Positions 3,439 to 43,609 of a stretch of DNA of 44,369 nt are shown one piece after another. The notes beneath the pieces are model-generated. The model saw only the letters and a program-made list of their open reading frames with translations, was not told the origin of the DNA and did not search any database. The translations under genes and the position numbers were made by a program. The first letter of the stretch is position 1, and each line of letters opens with the position of its first letter. Origin of the DNA: a virus; the IMG/VR virus record IMGVR_UViG_3300043464_001103, positions 1 to 44,369 of that record, one strand, 5' to 3'.

Positions 3439-3627
3439 TTATTCGGCGGATGTGCCAAGGTTGAGGAATGCGGCTCCAATGAATGAGAGGGGGAAAAAGG
3501 CGAGGAAGCCCAAAATCACACCGGGGGAGTTGTATGTTGATGTGTGCCACACCCCATAAGGAAGGATGGCGATAGCGGACAAAATGAAGAGAGTTCCGAG
3601 GGAATAAAGGATAGTGGCGAGTTTCAT
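3439..3627 (-). CDS. Small two-helix membrane protein (62 aa)
   Basis: The start is taken at the ATG at 3627 (context CAAACATATGAAA), about 25 nt downstream of a sigma70-like promoter. An in-frame Met 34 codons upstream would place the promoter inside the gene. The product has two hydrophobic segments: residues about 4-22 (ATILYSLGTLFILSAIAIL) and about 34-54 (VILGFLAFFPLSFIGAAFL), so it is probably an integral inner-membrane protein. It is the first gene of the leftward transcript. The family is unknown; superinfection exclusion or another membrane role is possible but not shown. Confidence 0.65.
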   Translation of the reverse strand: MKLATILYSLGTLFILSAIAILPYGVWHTSTYNSPGVILGFLAFFPLSFIGAAFLNLGTSAE

Positions 3628-3658
3628 ATGTTTGGATGTTTGGGTTAACTGACACCCC

Positions 3659-3728: not shown

Positions 3729-4003
3729 TGCCTGGTTAAATCCTGCCTAGTTGGGGAGGTTAGCGGACATCTACTGGGCAGGCTGGAATCCTTATTCCAT
3801 AAGGGATTGCGGAGTTTCTGCCTGATTACCTAATTAATTCTGGAAAGTTAATGGGCGGGGGAAAGAAAAACGAAAAAGGGAATCTGCTAATTTTTGTGGG
3901 TGATGTGTATTGGTTTGGGGGATTTTATTGGGTAATTAGGCAGAGGCCCATTCTATAAGGGTTGCAGCCTGCCTAGTTATGGTAATTATGGGGCAACTAG
4001 GCA
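3729..4003. repeat. TGCCTRRTT box cluster (operator/promoter candidates)
   Basis: Plus-strand copies lie at 3729-3737, 3744-3752, 3819-3827 and 3970-3978; minus-strand copies at 3934-3942 and 3995-4003. The pair 3970-3978 and 3995-4003 forms an inverted repeat with a 16-nt spacer. Two copies extend to TGCCTRATTACC (3819-3830 and 3931-3942). An identical 17-mer to the 3930-3946 copy occurs at 18992-19008. Clustered, inverted and upstream of divergent genes, they look like binding sites for a regulator; the HTH protein encoded at 43622-43840 is a candidate. Confidence 0.5.
3951..3993 (+). repeat. Repeated ~43-bp element, copy 1
   Basis: This block resembles 4701-4742: the first 20 nt (TTCTATAAGGGTTSCAGCCT) match with a single difference, and GTAATT followed by ATGGGG is shared at the far end. 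A shorter relative (TTCCATAAGGG) lies at 3796-3806. Both full copies sit upstream of rightward genes (the small terminase subunit; the Zn-ribbon protein and large terminase subunit), suggesting promoters or regulator sites. Confidence 0.45.
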
Positions 4004-33353: not shown

Positions 33354-33538
33354 AGCCTGTATTCCTTCCTCAGTTGTTGACGGTATTTGGTCACAGCAGC
33401 AGAGGCTAACCTCCGCTTCACATAGCCACGGTTGAATGTGTGGGACTCGCACCACAGTGCATCCTGCAACTCCTGCAAGGTGGCACGCTTCACCCACGGA
33501 CGCAGGGTTGCCCAGCTTTTGAAATTTGGTGTGCTCAT
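33350..33538 (-). CDS. Hypothetical basic protein (62 aa)
   Basis: The start at 33538 overlaps the polymerase stop (ATGA); an extra in-frame Met 4 codons upstream lies inside the polymerase gene. The product is basic (MSTPNFKSWATLRPWVKRA and ending RQQLRKEYRL), predicted helical, and might bind nucleic acid. It is sandwiched between DNA polymerase and VRR-NUC genes with overlaps to both, so it belongs to the replication operon. No family is recognised. Confidence 0.6.
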   Translation of the reverse strand: MSTPNFKSWATLRPWVKRATLQELQDALWCESHTFNRGYVKRRLASAAVTKYRQQLRKEYRL

Positions 33539-35541
33539 TTTCTGTACCAAGGTATTGTTTCTCCTTCTGCGACAAGCGGCAACCCCTCAGCCCATGCAGG
33601 CATGTCGGTGAGGCACTTGATAAAGTGTTCAAGGGTGTGAGCACTGCCACGGGTGGTGCGCACTGCCTCATCGTGGACGAGCATGATGATGTCATGCCCA
33701 GCCTTGGTTGCGTTGATCGCACCAACCCCCATGCAGTCGGCAGCGACACCCTGCGTGACGTTCTCCACCAACTTGCCACCATACGTCTCAATGCGTCCCC
33801 AGATCGCCTTGCCGGGGACCTGCCCGTAGAAGGTGATGCGGTCTCCAGTGAGGTGCGGTTCTGGGAATGAGAGGTGCCTGCCACTGGGGAGGCGGATCAT
33901 CAGGAACCGAGTCCCGGCAGTGGTCATGCAGAACACAGTCAGGTGCTTGCCCACTTTGATCTTCTGCCCCGGTGAGTTGATCGCTCGTTTGCACGCACCC
34001 TCCAACTTATACCACAGACCCACCACCTCCTTGTGCGTCTCTCTGAATGTGCCCACTGCCAACTCAGCCACCTCTGCACTCACCTCCTGCCCGTAACTCT
34101 CACAGGTGCCAATAAACTTGTTTGCCCCCATACCATAGCCACACCCGAGCACTGTCTGCTTGCCCACGAACCGTTGGTCCTTGGTGATGTGCGCCACCGT
34201 GGTGCGGAAGATTTTCGCAGCCATGATCTTGTAGCGGTCAATGCCCTGCCGGAACTCCTCCAACGCATCCTCCTGCCCCGCCAACCAGCACACGATCCGT
34301 GCCTCAATCGCAGCGTAGTCTACCGAGTCCAGTGGCTCCTCGCCATCGTTGATGAAATGGCGGATGCAGGTTGCGAGAGTTTGCAGGATCGGACCATGCA
34401 CCAGTTCGAGTGCATCCCTGCTTGCCCCACTGCGCAGCATGGCGAACGCATCCTCACTGTCCTTGGTGCTGCGCTTGAGGTTCTGCTGCTGCACCAACTT
34501 GCTACTCCATCTGCCCGTGGTGGCACCGTGGTAGAACAGGGTGCCACGGATGCGGGAGTCCTCGGGGTCTGCAAGCAGCAGCATGGACTTCACTTTCTTC
34601 ACTGCCGCAAAGGAGACTGCTTGCCTAATCTGGAGTGCCTTATAAGCAATCTCGTCCAACCCGTTCATGTTGTCTGGTTCCCAATCTTCAATCTCGTCTG
34701 CCAGTGTGGTGGACACCACATTGGTGCCCTTGTAGCCATGCTCCCGCAACCAGGGCAGAAGCACCTTGGTCTGTGTGGGTGCAAACCCTGTGAGCTTGAT
34801 GAACTCCTCATGCGCCTCTGCCGTCACCTCGTCGATCATCGCCTCTGCCCTGCGTAGGGTGGGCACATCGACGGGGAACCCTCGGTCATTGATAATGAGG
34901 TCATGGACAAACACCTCATGGGGCAACCCCGCGGCATCGAACAGGTGCAGTGCCTTCTCCACCTGCATCTCCACCTTCACGTCCTGCACGCAGTATTCGC
35001 ACAGTGCCTTGAACCGCACAGGGTCCATCGCTGGTGTGCGTCTCCACGTCTCGGTGTGGTCCTTGTCAGGCTTTTGCGGGATGCACAACTTCTGGATCAA
35101 CCCCTTGCCCTTGGTGTCCTTCTGCTGGGTCAACCCGAGGTAGGCTGCGCACTTCTCAAGCGAGTGAGGGATGCACGCACGTCTTGCCATCGCTGCTGTG
35201 CATCGCATCTGCTCGGGCTTGAGGCTTTGTAGCCCAACGCTCTTTGGCATTGTGTAGTTCCAGATTGCATACTCAAATGGGGCGTTGTGTGCATACACCA
35301 CTGCGTCCTCATCCTCGCTCATATCCCACAGCATGTCCCACGCCTCGGACTGCTCAATAGGGTCAACCCAACTCACCCGATCTGCCCATACCCCCGGCAC
35401 CCACAGCAGGGGTTCCCGATCCTCCCGTGAGATGGCGAGGCAGAGAATCTGCGTGGAGGGATGGCGGGCGTAACCGAACGTGCCCACCTTGCGGATGTCC
35501 GCTTCGCTAAAAGTTTCGAAGTCGATGTGGTACTTGCTCAC
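33535..35541 (-). CDS. DNA polymerase, family A with 3'-5' exonuclease
   Basis: It is the phage replicative polymerase. The N-terminus has an Exo I motif (Asp7 and Glu9 in HIDFETF). The polymerase domain has motif A near residue 407 (DYAAIEARI in place of DYSQIELR, a variant frequent in phages), motif B around 445-463 (with KQTVLGCGYGMG), and motif C near 620 (LVHDEA). Length 668 is normal for a phage Pol I-type enzyme without a 5'-3' exonuclease. A GTG start overlaps the upstream stop (GTGA). It clusters with primase-helicase, ssDNA-binding protein and nucleases as in other phage replication modules. Confidence 0.93.
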   Translation of the reverse strand: MSKYHIDFETFSEADIRKVGTFGYARHPSTQILCLAISREDREPLLWVPGVWADRVSWVDPIEQSEAWDMLWDMSEDEDAVVYAHNAPFEYAIWNYTMPKSVGLQSLKPEQMRCTAAMARRACIPHSLEKCAAYLGLTQQKDTKGKGLIQKLCIPQKPDKDHTETWRRTPAMDPVRFKALCEYCVQDVKVEMQVEKALHLFDAAGLPHEVFVHDLIINDRGFPVDVPTLRRAEAMIDEVTAEAHEEFIKLTGFAPTQTKVLLPWLREHGYKGTNVVSTTLADEIEDWEPDNMNGLDEIAYKALQIRQAVSFAAVKKVKSMLLLADPEDSRIRGTLFYHGATTGRWSSKLVQQQNLKRSTKDSEDAFAMLRSGASRDALELVHGPILQTLATCIRHFINDGEEPLDSVDYAAIEARIVCWLAGQEDALEEFRQGIDRYKIMAAKIFRTTVAHITKDQRFVGKQTVLGCGYGMGANKFIGTCESYGQEVSAEVAELAVGTFRETHKEVVGLWYKLEGACKRAINSPGQKIKVGKHLTVFCMTTAGTRFLMIRLPSGRHLSFPEPHLTGDRITFYGQVPGKAIWGRIETYGGKLVENVTQGVAADCMGVGAINATKAGHDIIMLVHDEAVRTTRGSAHTLEHFIKCLTDMPAWAEGLPLVAEGETIPWYRK

Positions 35542-35735
35542 CCCTCCACCCCCTTAAAGCGTTTGATGGCTCTGCGTGCAACGAGCACGGGGATGCACCC
35601 CGGTGTGTAGGCGATGGTGCCCAATGCGTCTGCGAGGTGCTGTGCTACTGCCTCAGCCCTGCGTTCGCGCAGCACAAATTCCTTGAGCACGGGTGCCCAA
35701 GCCCAGCGGGTGATGTATCGGATAAGTCGTCTCAT
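35538..35735 (-). CDS. Hypothetical basic protein (65 aa)
   Basis: The gene lies between the tRNA-like gene and the polymerase, overlapping the latter by 4 nt (GTGA). The product is basic and helical (MRRLIRYITRWAWAPVLKE and onward), with an Ala-rich middle and a positively charged end (ARRAIKRFKGVEG). The start has the CATCACCATG context typical of this region. It could be an accessory protein of the polymerase or bind RNA; there is no direct evidence. Confidence 0.6.
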   Translation of the reverse strand: MRRLIRYITRWAWAPVLKEFVLRERRAEAVAQHLADALGTIAYTPGCIPVLVARRAIKRFKGVEG

Positions 35736-35744
35736 GGTGATGTA

Positions 35745-35845
35745 GGTGGTAATCTTTTGAGCGTGGCAGGAATCGAACCTGCGACTATTGCGGTGTTTAT
35801 TCGCGCTACCTTACCATTCGGTCACACGCTCAAAAGATTGCCACC
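35745..35845. repeat. Extended inverted repeat enclosing the tRNA-like gene
   Basis: Beyond the 7-bp acceptor stem the flanks pair for 8 more bp (AATCTTTT with AAAAGATT), then one mismatched position (35750/35840), then 5 more bp (GGTGG with CCACC). That gives 20 paired positions of 21 around the tRNA. Neither side continues into a T-run that would mark a simple terminator. Confidence 0.85.
35759..35831 (-). tRNA. tRNA-like gene, anticodon uncertain (AAA by position)
   Basis: It is a 73-nt cloverleaf: a 7-bp acceptor stem (GAGCGTG/CACGCTC), U8, a 3-bp D stem (ACC/GGT) with a GG-containing D loop, and a perfect T arm (GCAGG-TTCGATT-CCTGC). No CCA is encoded. The anticodon stem is poor: only the middle three pairs form, with C-A and A-C mismatches at positions 27-43 and 31-39. 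The loop ATAAACA puts T at position 33 and AAA at 34-36, which would read Phe UUU with an unusual unpaired-type A34. It may be a decayed tRNA or a tRNA-like structure with another use. Confidence 0.7.
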
Positions 35846-35872
35846 CCTCCTGTGAGGGGCAGCGGGGGAGGA

Positions 35873-36433
35873 CTAGCCAAGGTCGTCCTCGTCGTCGTCT
35901 TCGAGAGTGGTGAACTCCTCTTCCGCACGAACGGATGGTTTGCCTCCGAACGCTTCACCATCCTTGACGAACTGGACTGCGAGCAGTTCTGCAATCACCT
36001 GCTTGCCACCCTTGGGGTGCTCAGATGCCCACAGGCGCAGTGTGCAGTTCACGAAGCACCCAGCGTAAGGCTTGCCGTCCTCAGCAGCGAGGGGGCGCAG
36101 GTCCTTGTCCACCACCACGGGGCGACGACTGGAGTTGGATGCCACGTACATGTGGTCCTCATCGTAACCGTCATACTCCTTGAGGGAGGCATCCTTTAGG
36201 CACTTCTTCAGACCCTTGGGGATGCCCAAAGGCCACTTCGCCTTCGCCACTTTCTCAATCACCGATTCGATGAGAGCGATCTGCTTTGCATCGGTGTCGT
36301 TGTGCAGCATGAAGTTGGCTGAGAACCTTGGTTCCTTGCCCTCTTCAATTGCCTTAGGTGTGAACAGAACTGGGAAGCTCAGTCGCACATTCTTCAACCG
36401 CACTTTGGCGGGGTCCTCAATCGGTTTGCTCAT
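35873..36433 (-). CDS. DUF2815-family ssDNA-binding protein
   Basis: It is probably the phage single-stranded-DNA binding protein of the replication module. The 186-residue product has the DUF2815 pattern: VRLKNVRLSFPVLFTPKA, then FSANFMLHNDTDAKQ, then DEDHMYVASNSSRRPVV and VNCTLRLWA. It ends in a strongly acidic tail (LEDDDEDDLG), as in T7 gp2.5 and bacterial SSB, where such tails dock replication partners. The start at 36433 has an A/C-rich leader. It sits beside the DUF2800-like nuclease gene, as in known phages. Confidence 0.85.
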   Translation of the reverse strand: MSKPIEDPAKVRLKNVRLSFPVLFTPKAIEEGKEPRFSANFMLHNDTDAKQIALIESVIEKVAKAKWPLGIPKGLKKCLKDASLKEYDGYDEDHMYVASNSSRRPVVVDKDLRPLAAEDGKPYAGCFVNCTLRLWASEHPKGGKQVIAELLAVQFVKDGEAFGGKPSVRAEEEFTTLEDDDEDDLG

Positions 36434-42298: not shown

Positions 42299-42697
42299 TT
42301 ACAGGAGGTCATCGTCGTCTGGGGTTGCCGCACTGCCCAGTTTAGGCACCACTGCGATGCACTCGAACAGGGTCTCGCGCTCTGCACCGAGTTGCCCGCT
42401 CGGTTCGACAAGGGCAACGCTGCCGTGGGTGCTGAGTTTGGCGATGAACGCACGCACATGCTTCTCAGGCACGCTGAGTTGGTAGAATGCCTTTTCGAGT
42501 TCATCGTCCTGCCAGTTGACGCACTGGTGCATGTCGGAGGAGTGACCCATGAGGGCACGCACCTGTGATGCCGTGGTGCCGTAGCAATCCCAAGCTGGGC
42601 GTTTGCCCTGACTGGGGGTGAGGTAGTAGTCCGCACCGTAGGACTTCGCACGGCAGAGGTTGTGCCTCTTGGAGAGGATGGGGATCATGGTGCTCAT
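42299..42697 (-). CDS. Hypothetical protein (132 aa) with acidic DDDDLL tail
   Basis: The start at 42697 overlaps the stop of the 207-residue gene (ATGA). The product (MSTMIPILSKRHNLCRAKS) has a basic, aromatic N-terminal part (YGADYYLTPSQGKRPAW), a helical middle (VRALMGHSSDMHQCV) and ends with SAATPDDDDLL. No fold is recognised, but the acidic tail links it with other replication and packaging proteins of this phage. It is a candidate DNA-metabolism partner in the operon. Confidence 0.65.
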   Translation of the reverse strand: MSTMIPILSKRHNLCRAKSYGADYYLTPSQGKRPAWDCYGTTASQVRALMGHSSDMHQCVNWQDDELEKAFYQLSVPEKHVRAFIAKLSTHGSVALVEPSGQLGAERETLFECIAVVPKLGSAATPDDDDLL

Positions 42698-43317
42698 GGC
42701 AGGATTGCGCGGATGGATTTGAGCGTTGCCTGCGCATCGGCAAGTTGGTTCTTGAGCTTTTGGTTCTCCTCCATCAACTCACGGTAGAAGGACTCGATTC
42801 GCCCCATTAGCTGCGACGATGCTGCTTTGATAGCATCGGTTGGAATGTGCAAACCTGTCCCTGCGTCACGGTCCGCAACAATCCGCCACCCGATAATCTC
42901 TGCCTCCCTGTCCTCCGTTTGACCGAAGTAATGCTGCTTCATGGGAGCAGTGCATTGGTTGCCGTTGCGGTACATCACCTCCATCACTGTGTCGGCTTGG
43001 ATGTGAGAGTTGATGTACATCACATCAGCAGGGGTGTGTGCCGTCCATCCGTTCATCCGCCACATGGCACCGTCGATGAGCGTGTAGCCTTCGGGCAGCG
43101 GGGTGTCGCTGGGGACTGCGTAGGTGACTGCCAGTTGATCCACTCCGGCTAATGGGTTCACAGGTTTCCAGTAGTGCCTCCTAATGCTGAAAACCAAAAC
43201 ATTGTTGTCCCTTTGTGGGGTGTTCTGAAACCGTCCATCCACCTCCTCGGGGATGAGCAGTCGGTAGCCTTCTGGGGGTGTCTGTTGTGCGGGGTTGTGC
43301 CAGGGTATCTTTTTCAT
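42694..43317 (-). CDS. Hypothetical protein (207 aa) with C-terminal coiled coil
   Basis: The first two-thirds look globular, starting MKKIPWHNPAQQTPPEGYR and containing HYWKPVNPLAGVDQL. The last 50 residues form a coiled coil (LMEENQKLKNQLADAQATL). It begins in a CACCACCATG context with no Shine-Dalgarno and overlaps the next gene. No family is recognised; it may mediate oligomerisation or be a regulator. It belongs to the right-hand operon upstream of the primase. Confidence 0.65.
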   Translation of the reverse strand: MKKIPWHNPAQQTPPEGYRLLIPEEVDGRFQNTPQRDNNVLVFSIRRHYWKPVNPLAGVDQLAVTYAVPSDTPLPEGYTLIDGAMWRMNGWTAHTPADVMYINSHIQADTVMEVMYRNGNQCTAPMKQHYFGQTEDREAEIIGWRIVADRDAGTGLHIPTDAIKAASSQLMGRIESFYRELMEENQKLKNQLADAQATLKSIRAILP

Positions 43318-43336: not shown

Positions 43337-43609
43337 TTACTGTGAGGATTGCTCCAAGTTGCTCACACACTCTTGGAGTGCGTCGATTGCACTTTGTGCC
43401 TCGTCGTTGGCTTGCTCCAATGCGTCGATTGCCTCCTGCATCACCTGCCCTTTTTCCCCCTGTTGCAGACTCTCAGGTAAGTTGTCCATTGCCTCCTGCT
43501 CCTCATCCCGAATCTCCTGAATCCGCTCTTGGATTAATTCGACTTCGCTTTGGAGCGATGATGCCTGCGATACCAGTTCTTCAATTTGCTTTCTGCGTTT
43601 TTTGTTCAT
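43337..43609 (-). CDS. Small coiled-coil protein (90 aa)
   Basis: Nearly the entire product is a charged heptad repeat: RKQIEELVSQASSLQSEVE, then ELIQERIQEIRDEEQEAMD and DALEQANDEAQSAID. It is a predicted parallel coiled coil, probably dimeric. The start at 43609 is in the CATCACCATG context. Such proteins are common beside phage regulators. There is no evidence for a specific partner, although the HTH gene follows closely upstream in the same operon. Confidence 0.65.
   Translation of the reverse strand: MNKKRRKQIEELVSQASSLQSEVELIQERIQEIRDEEQEAMDNLPESLQQGEKGQVMQEAIDALEQANDEAQSAIDALQECVSNLEQSSQ

Follow-up and report, generated by a model that had tools for sequence, protein, structure and literature searches.

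A double-stranded stalk with a tRNA-like tip at the ssb-polymerase junction of a phage, a possible mRNA processing or insulating element

The gap between the single-stranded DNA-binding protein gene (ssb) and the DNA polymerase gene of a phage represented by IMG/VR virus record IMGVR_UViG_3300043464_001103 holds a long double-stranded stalk tipped by a tRNA-like cloverleaf. The entire record, 44,369 bases in length, was analysed and is referred to as the window. We tentatively interpret the element, as a reading that is possible rather than probable, as a stalk for processing or insulating the mRNA between ssb and polymerase, the tRNA being a replaceable tip that would not decode in the normal way. 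The architecture and location of the element, the persistence of the stalk in a close relative that lacks the tRNA and the reappearance of this layout at the equivalent junction of other lineages form the basis of this interpretation.

The right part of the window is a leftward replication block encoding a primase, a DNA methyltransferase, a DUF2800 exonuclease, the DUF2815-type ssb, a 65-residue open reading frame (orf65), a family A DNA polymerase, a VRR-NUC nuclease and an SNF2-type helicase. The element lies within the interval from the ssb stop (35873) to the orf65 start (35735) and has the same orientation as both genes. Upstream of it, the ssb gene (35873-36433, minus strand) encodes a DUF2815/Gp2.5-like ssDNA-binding protein (PHROG 112, E 2e-40; Pfam Enc34_ssDNA-bd, E 2e-32). 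Downstream, orf65 (35538-35735, minus strand) encodes a small conserved protein for which PHROG and Pfam profile searches returned no match, and its stop is overlapped by the start of the polymerase gene (33535-35541, minus strand; PHROG 17, E 2.5e-89; Pfam DNA_pol_A). The stalk is separated from the orf65 start by an A/C-rich leader, TACATCACC (35736-35744, minus strand), of the same type without a Shine-Dalgarno sequence as is found in other early genes. Such leaders (ACCCATAACACCACATCACC-ATG) precede the early genes at 42694-43317, 43337-43609 and 35538-35735, and Shine-Dalgarno sequences are absent from most genes of this phage, which is a hint at its host.

The minus strand of the element forms a near-perfect helix of 21 positions preceded by a hairpin. 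The interval given in the original prediction, 35745-35845, is correct, and the strand, which had been left unstated, is minus according to ARAGORN and Rfam. The two arms (35745-35765 and 35825-35845) are 21 nt long and 95% complementary, in agreement with the predicted helix of 20 pairs in 21 positions. As was also predicted, the flanks extend the acceptor stem: the outer 14 positions, identified by folding and an inverted-repeat scan, comprise 13 pairs and one C-A mismatch (35840/35750) and are continuous with the 7-bp acceptor stem. The 5' arm of this outer stalk is located at 35832-35845 and the 3' arm at 35745-35758, the latter including the tRNA discriminator A at 35758. Stacked on the 5-bp T stem, the stalk with its 20 of 21 pairs provides the double-stranded RNA of about 22 nt or more that characterizes an RNase III stalk. 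The hairpin (GCCCCUC-ACAG-GAGGGGU; 35843-35860, minus strand), found by folding and a terminator scan, adjoins the stalk with an overlap of 2-3 nt and has a weak terminator-like tail, AAUCUUUU. A transcription attenuator was considered and is not supported, as the U tract of the hairpin is weak and the competing stalk would form only after passage of the polymerase. The only other comparable inverted repeat in the window is found at 3773-3977 (23 nt, 87% complementary). It is imperfect, has 159 nt separating its arms and occupies the gap between divergent gene blocks; its counterpart in a related contig (L050, 57-277) is longer still with arms of about 70 nt, and the repeat may be an origin or a divergent control region.

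The minus strand of the element folds better than 200 of 200 dinucleotide shuffles (z -4.9), and the cloverleaf together with the outer helix represents the minimum-energy structure (-42.9 kcal/mol). The long basal helix is indeed unusual for a tRNA gene, with an extension score of 13 compared to 2-6 in a set of eight T4 tRNAs, two T4 stable RNAs and three other tRNAs from the collected loci. The T4 stable RNAs, rnaC and rnaD (species 1 and 2), resemble the element in being small phage-encoded RNAs annotated next to tRNAs and differ from it in having no enclosing long helix (extension scores 2-3). With -59.8 versus -49.7 kcal/mol for 35730-35860, the antisense strand is more stably folded than the sense strand because all three C-A mismatches of the element turn into G-U pairs there. 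The window copy taken alone could thus support an argument for an antisense RNA, and with C-A rather than G-U mismatches this copy shows no selection on the sense RNA.

At its tip the stalk carries a tRNA-like cloverleaf with a broken anticodon arm. Rfam detects a tRNA (RF00005) at 35831-35758 with 46.8 bits, exceeding the curated cut-off of 29 bits, and an E-value of 5e-7 for the whole window; ARAGORN calls tRNA-Phe (aaa), and the fold of 35758-35831 (minus strand) agrees. Three of the arms, all on the minus strand, are well formed: the 5' strand of the acceptor stem, GAGCGTG (35825-35831), pairs with 35759-35765 at 7 of 7 positions, the D arm, ACC-GAATGGTAA-GGT (35808-35822), carries G18G19, and the T arm, GCAGG-TTCGATT-CCTGC (35766-35782), recognized by Rfam as well as by folding, is intact with 5 of 5 pairs. 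The anticodon arm (35789-35805, minus strand) is defective in the way that had been described, with only three pairs (GCG/CGC) flanked by C27-A43 and A31-C39 mismatches. AAA does occupy the anticodon position (35796-35798), U33 is present, position 37 is C, and the loop AUAAACA is unusual. Instead of a five-pair stem and an anticodon in bacterial use, the arm presents three pairs and AAA. The tRNA has neither an encoded CCA nor a free 3' end: AAAG comes after the discriminator A, and these positions all pair with the leader that precedes the cloverleaf. Many bacteria add CCA post-transcriptionally, making the missing CCA on its own a weak argument. A working tRNA-Phe was rejected on account of the apparently non-functional anticodon arm and the absence of the tRNA in the close relative described below. 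Descent from a known phage or plasmid tRNA was likewise rejected, as the matches in other records are all partial with E-values of at least 0.07 and no near copy was found among them; the best-ranked phage match to the 3' half, in Arthrobacter phage Kumotta (E 2), lies inside an annotated coding gene and was taken as chance. In the collections searched, the window phage is so far the only one with a tRNA tip; the tRNA may be passive, having been captured, or it may function as a tRNA-like RNA.

The closest relative retains the stalk and replaces the tRNA. Searches by DNA for near relatives of the window returned none among phages and one in IMG/VR, and this contig, IMGVR_UViG_3300037189_007198 (L005), is the sole close relative in the collections searched. 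Its polymerase is 88% and its orf65 98% identical (64 of 65 residues). In the equivalent gap between ssb and orf65, L005 keeps the 5' hairpin with one loop change as well as the leader, TACAYCACC, ahead of the orf65 start. Its stalk again measures 21 positions; the C-A mismatch of the window is a C-G pair, the outer pairs are kept with a compensated change, and inner pairs are altered on both sides in a compensated manner. The tip is a different structured insert in which ARAGORN finds no tRNA and Rfam only matches at chance level. The stalk thus persists while the tip changes. As L005 does without the tRNA, an essential role for the tRNA appears doubtful. The original prediction had looked to relatives for a loss of flanking complementarity as the sign against it, and L005 shows the opposite, keeping the complementarity and losing the tRNA. 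The likely answers fall within the proposed range of a decayed tRNA or a tRNA mimic serving as processing signal, decoy or structural RNA, and a structural or processing RNA fits best. The prediction centred on the tRNA itself, yet L005 and other lineages keep the flanking helix and the 5' hairpin where the tRNA is absent.

The same layout is found at the ssb-polymerase junction of several other phage lineages. We gathered 160 loci via an ssb alignment from viral contigs and bacterial and archaeal genomes, together with phage records, and scanned the ssb-polymerase interval of each. Long near-perfect helices are present in Bordetella phage BPP-1 (L053) and in the contigs L194, L170, L169, L133, L129, L196, L220, L145 and L140, none of which is similar in sequence to the window. 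These loci are a minority that includes BPP-1 and its allies as well as freshwater and marine contigs; outside this minority, junctions carry plain terminator-like hairpins or nothing. In most helix loci a strong short hairpin adjoins the helix without a spacer. The likeness across lineages is one of architecture and place only, and common descent is not claimed. Within lineages, helix and tip are exchanged between fixed flanks. In the BPP-1 group, comprising six contigs identified by a pattern search, the flanks GGCCTTCGGGCCGGGCGCTTTG and CAAAGCGAACACGGAAAAGAACATGACG, the second of which includes the polymerase start, are nearly fixed, and the inner helix and tip are dissimilar cassettes, every one of them an inverted repeat. 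One member (L233) has an 18-bp helix and no elaborate tip, its loop of just 9 nt indicating that the tip is dispensable there. Near-identical flanks around a replaced helix are also seen in L131, L139, L140 and L141. L169 and L194 have a common tip core on different helices, and elaborate tips such as this core and the tRNA may signify that the tip is important in some phages. With regard to the order to which L170 belongs, a search for more prophages found the ssb in only 7 of 399 genomes.

Picked by a score equal for G-U and A-C, the helices (n = 17) measure 14, 16, 17, 18, 19, 19, 20, 20, 21 (eight times) and 25 positions; several of the eight 21-bp helices are related (BPP-1 group; window and L005), while those of L196 and L145 are close to neither. 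Under this neutral score G-U outnumbers A-C by 11:3 on the ssb-sense strand (p 0.06), an excess that is suggestive only. A stronger strand-bias argument built on a 19:2 count was discarded as unreliable, the helices having been chosen there by a score favouring G-U. A helix score of at least 18 is reached in 8 of 64 ssb-polymerase gaps compared to 4 of 220 other gaps and a score of at least 20 in 5 of 64 compared to 3 of 220 (p 0.016). This gap-only control replaced a mostly coding one, and the excess remains in the smaller sample. The long stalk is therefore over-represented at the ssb-polymerase junction, yet occurs in a minority of phages. A hairpin just after ssb, scored wherever a stretch of 36 nt no more than 80 nt from the ssb end folds at -16 kcal/mol or lower, is found at 44% of the 160 loci and in 7.6% of control stretches (p 3e-25), part of the excess representing the usual terminator signal at gene ends as the controls are mostly coding.

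The proposed processing or insulating function is consistent with this anatomy. Acting as RNA on the ssb-sense strand of a single operon, the ssb-orf65-polymerase transcript would carry the short 5' hairpin followed by the two-turn (21-position) double-stranded stalk, the stalk being the functional part and the tip exchangeable. The stalk would most likely provide a sequence-tolerant RNase III-type cut site and/or a barrier against exonucleases and ribosomes, so that ssb and orf65-polymerase would form separate messages with different expression levels. The ssb protein is required in quantity and the polymerase sparingly. Exonuclease blocking or translational insulation would be compatible with the same anatomy as RNase III cutting. 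We favour this kind of element because its sequence is free, its length is about two turns, its tip ranges from 9 nt to a tRNA and its site lies between ssb and polymerase. The minimum RNase III target has been reported to be 22 nt, with new sites showing no striking consensus pattern (PMC5371410), and the eight 21-bp helices, close to this minimum, are counted in favour of the stalk reading. RNase III processing stalks in rRNA precursors and T7 early mRNA are similar in that they are intergenic, sequence-tolerant double-stranded RNAs of about two turns or more able to enclose a structured RNA. The element differs from them in its place at the ssb-polymerase junction, its preceding hairpin and its hypervariable tips, one of them a tRNA. 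Literature searches found no description of such an element, and Rfam holds no family matching the hairpin and stalk layout.

Two alternatives centre on the tRNA itself. An excised tRNA-derived small RNA could act in trans, for instance as a decoy or as a replacement insensitive to host anticodon nucleases, in which case the odd anticodon loop would be its essential feature and the stalk would merely aid its release through RNase III and then RNase P. We regard this as doubtful, though with some weight, since the acceptor, D and T arms are intact and the anticodon arm alone is altered. Phage tRNA genes such as the T4 tRNA cluster and the mycobacteriophage C1 tRNAs share the cloverleaf, the intact acceptor, D and T arms and an altered anticodon loop; the window copy differs in being single, lying between two genes and being sealed in a 21-position helix without an encoded CCA and with a broken anticodon stem. 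The AAA anticodon, C37 and 3-bp stem make a functional decoder unlikely, and the stalk of the closest relative comes without a tRNA. A fully paired leader and trailer should furthermore impede RNase P. Evasion of anticodon nucleases has been proposed for phage tRNAs whose anticodon loops are altered (PMC10264068), and retron evasion by phage tRNAs has been reported (PMC11555353), both of which would fit a trans-acting RNA. The second alternative, a captured host or phage tRNA decaying within an older stalk, would leave the tRNA sequence, and perhaps the stalk, without a role. The three C-A mismatches do resemble transitions, the anticodon arm is degenerate and L005 has no tRNA. We nevertheless consider decay unlikely given that the acceptor stem and T arm contain no mismatch (12 of 12 pairs), that the acceptor stem is in exact register with the outer helix for a total of 21 equal to that of L005, and that the L005 stalk persists with compensated changes.

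Other explanations concern the junction as a whole. The element could be one of the smaller representatives of a broader class of ornate non-coding RNAs in phages, with hypervariable arms that confer specificity or bear cargo. Favourable to this are the L131-type contigs, in which a nearly invariant core stands next to a replaced helix in a structured gap of about 700 nt, and the long gaps of L196, L220, L168, L207 and L129, which have other common motifs and no Rfam match. The window and BPP-1 elements have no such core and no sequence homology to the large gaps, and membership is quite unlikely. GOLLD and ROOL are large structured phage RNAs frequently close to tRNAs; they are much larger than the window element, and no Rfam match to them is found at these loci. 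A split ribosome-binding site, in which the stalk would bring the AGGAGG of the hairpin near the orf65 start at 9 nt, has a precedent in T4 genes 25 and 38 (PMC3014915), which likewise place an RNA structure between AGGAGG and the start codon of a phage mRNA. In both the window and L005 the order is AGGAGG, stalk, 9 nt and AUG, so that a Shine-Dalgarno sequence lies 5' of the structure with the start at a functional distance. Compared with the T4 genes, the window stalk is far longer, its AGGAGG is itself base-paired in the hairpin and the phage hardly uses Shine-Dalgarno sites, the orf65 leader resembling those of early genes that lack them. Most genes of the phage having no Shine-Dalgarno sequence and the BPP-1 group no AGGAGG ahead of its stalk, this explanation was set aside as very improbable. 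There is similarly little probability of a DNA-level palindrome or cruciform with a role in replication or recombination. Near-perfect inverted repeats within a replication gene block would suit such an element and the window mismatches do not favour a sense RNA, but the tRNA loops are legible on the ssb-sense strand only and the weak G-U excess falls on the same strand. A point against the processing or insulating stalk is that template-switch correction can keep inverted repeats near-perfect without selection.

Large structured gaps occupy the same junction in some contigs. In L131 (3510-4250), and likewise in L139, L140 and L141, the ssb-polymerase gap is about 700 nt long, contains no open reading frame above 40 residues and is strongly structured, with a nearly invariant core, one hypervariable helix and no Rfam match, making it a candidate large phage non-coding RNA. 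The long gaps of L220 (3540-3690), L196 (3690-3830), L168 (4770-4920), L207 and L129 contain the common motifs GTTTGAACGG..GATCGCTA, TGCGCAAACC and AGGCGGAAA and are apparently non-coding. A search of the window against Rfam matched the tRNA alone and no other structured RNA, including riboswitches, introns, GOLLD, ROOL and OLE; 16 loci gave no match at the gathering cut-off, L131 and L220 reaching chance level only. No sequence link between the gaps of about 700 nt and the short stalks was found. It is decidedly unlikely, though conceivable, that the ssb-polymerase junction of many phages holds an undescribed, fast-changing RNA class of hairpin, two-turn stalk and swappable tip, the tip being a tRNA body in the window phage and a multibranched core in others, in some cases enlarged to a non-coding RNA of about 700 nt, whose variable tip would be directed against host RNA-targeting factors.

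If the processing or insulating stalk is confirmed, the replication-operon junction of several phage lineages would hold an mRNA element whose shape and length are conserved where its sequence is not, and a captured tRNA could serve as the tip of such an element. The exchanged tips and helices would represent a natural experiment on the requirements of an intergenic RNA stalk and a possible source of phage tRNA-like RNAs, and BPP-1, which is cultured and has the same layout, would offer a tractable model. A tRNA call in a phage genome may accordingly denote a structural RNA tip and not a decoding tRNA.

Further structured or tRNA-related features were observed around the ssb genes of other loci. 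Right after ssb, L107 (3555-3680) carries a T-arm-like hairpin, GTGAG-TTCGAAT-CTCAC, inside a longer fold; the only match is a weak one to tmRNA (9 bits), and this may be a second tip derived from a tRNA. In APSE and Arsenophonus prophages (L061 at 3830-3905, L162, L181 and L201), the ssb-polymerase gap contains an ordinary tRNA-Lys(CUU) gene that lies on the opposite strand and has no extended helix. In L192 a 15-bp helix element is present in two near-identical copies (3580-3650 and around 4290), each right before a different gene. Finally, in L094 (around 1780-1850), L095, L096 and L097 the gene upstream of ssb is preceded by a gap that contains a perfect helix of about 22 bp (ATTTTCAACTTTCGGTTGACA / TGTCAACCGAAAGTTGAAAAT), and this helix may be an operator.
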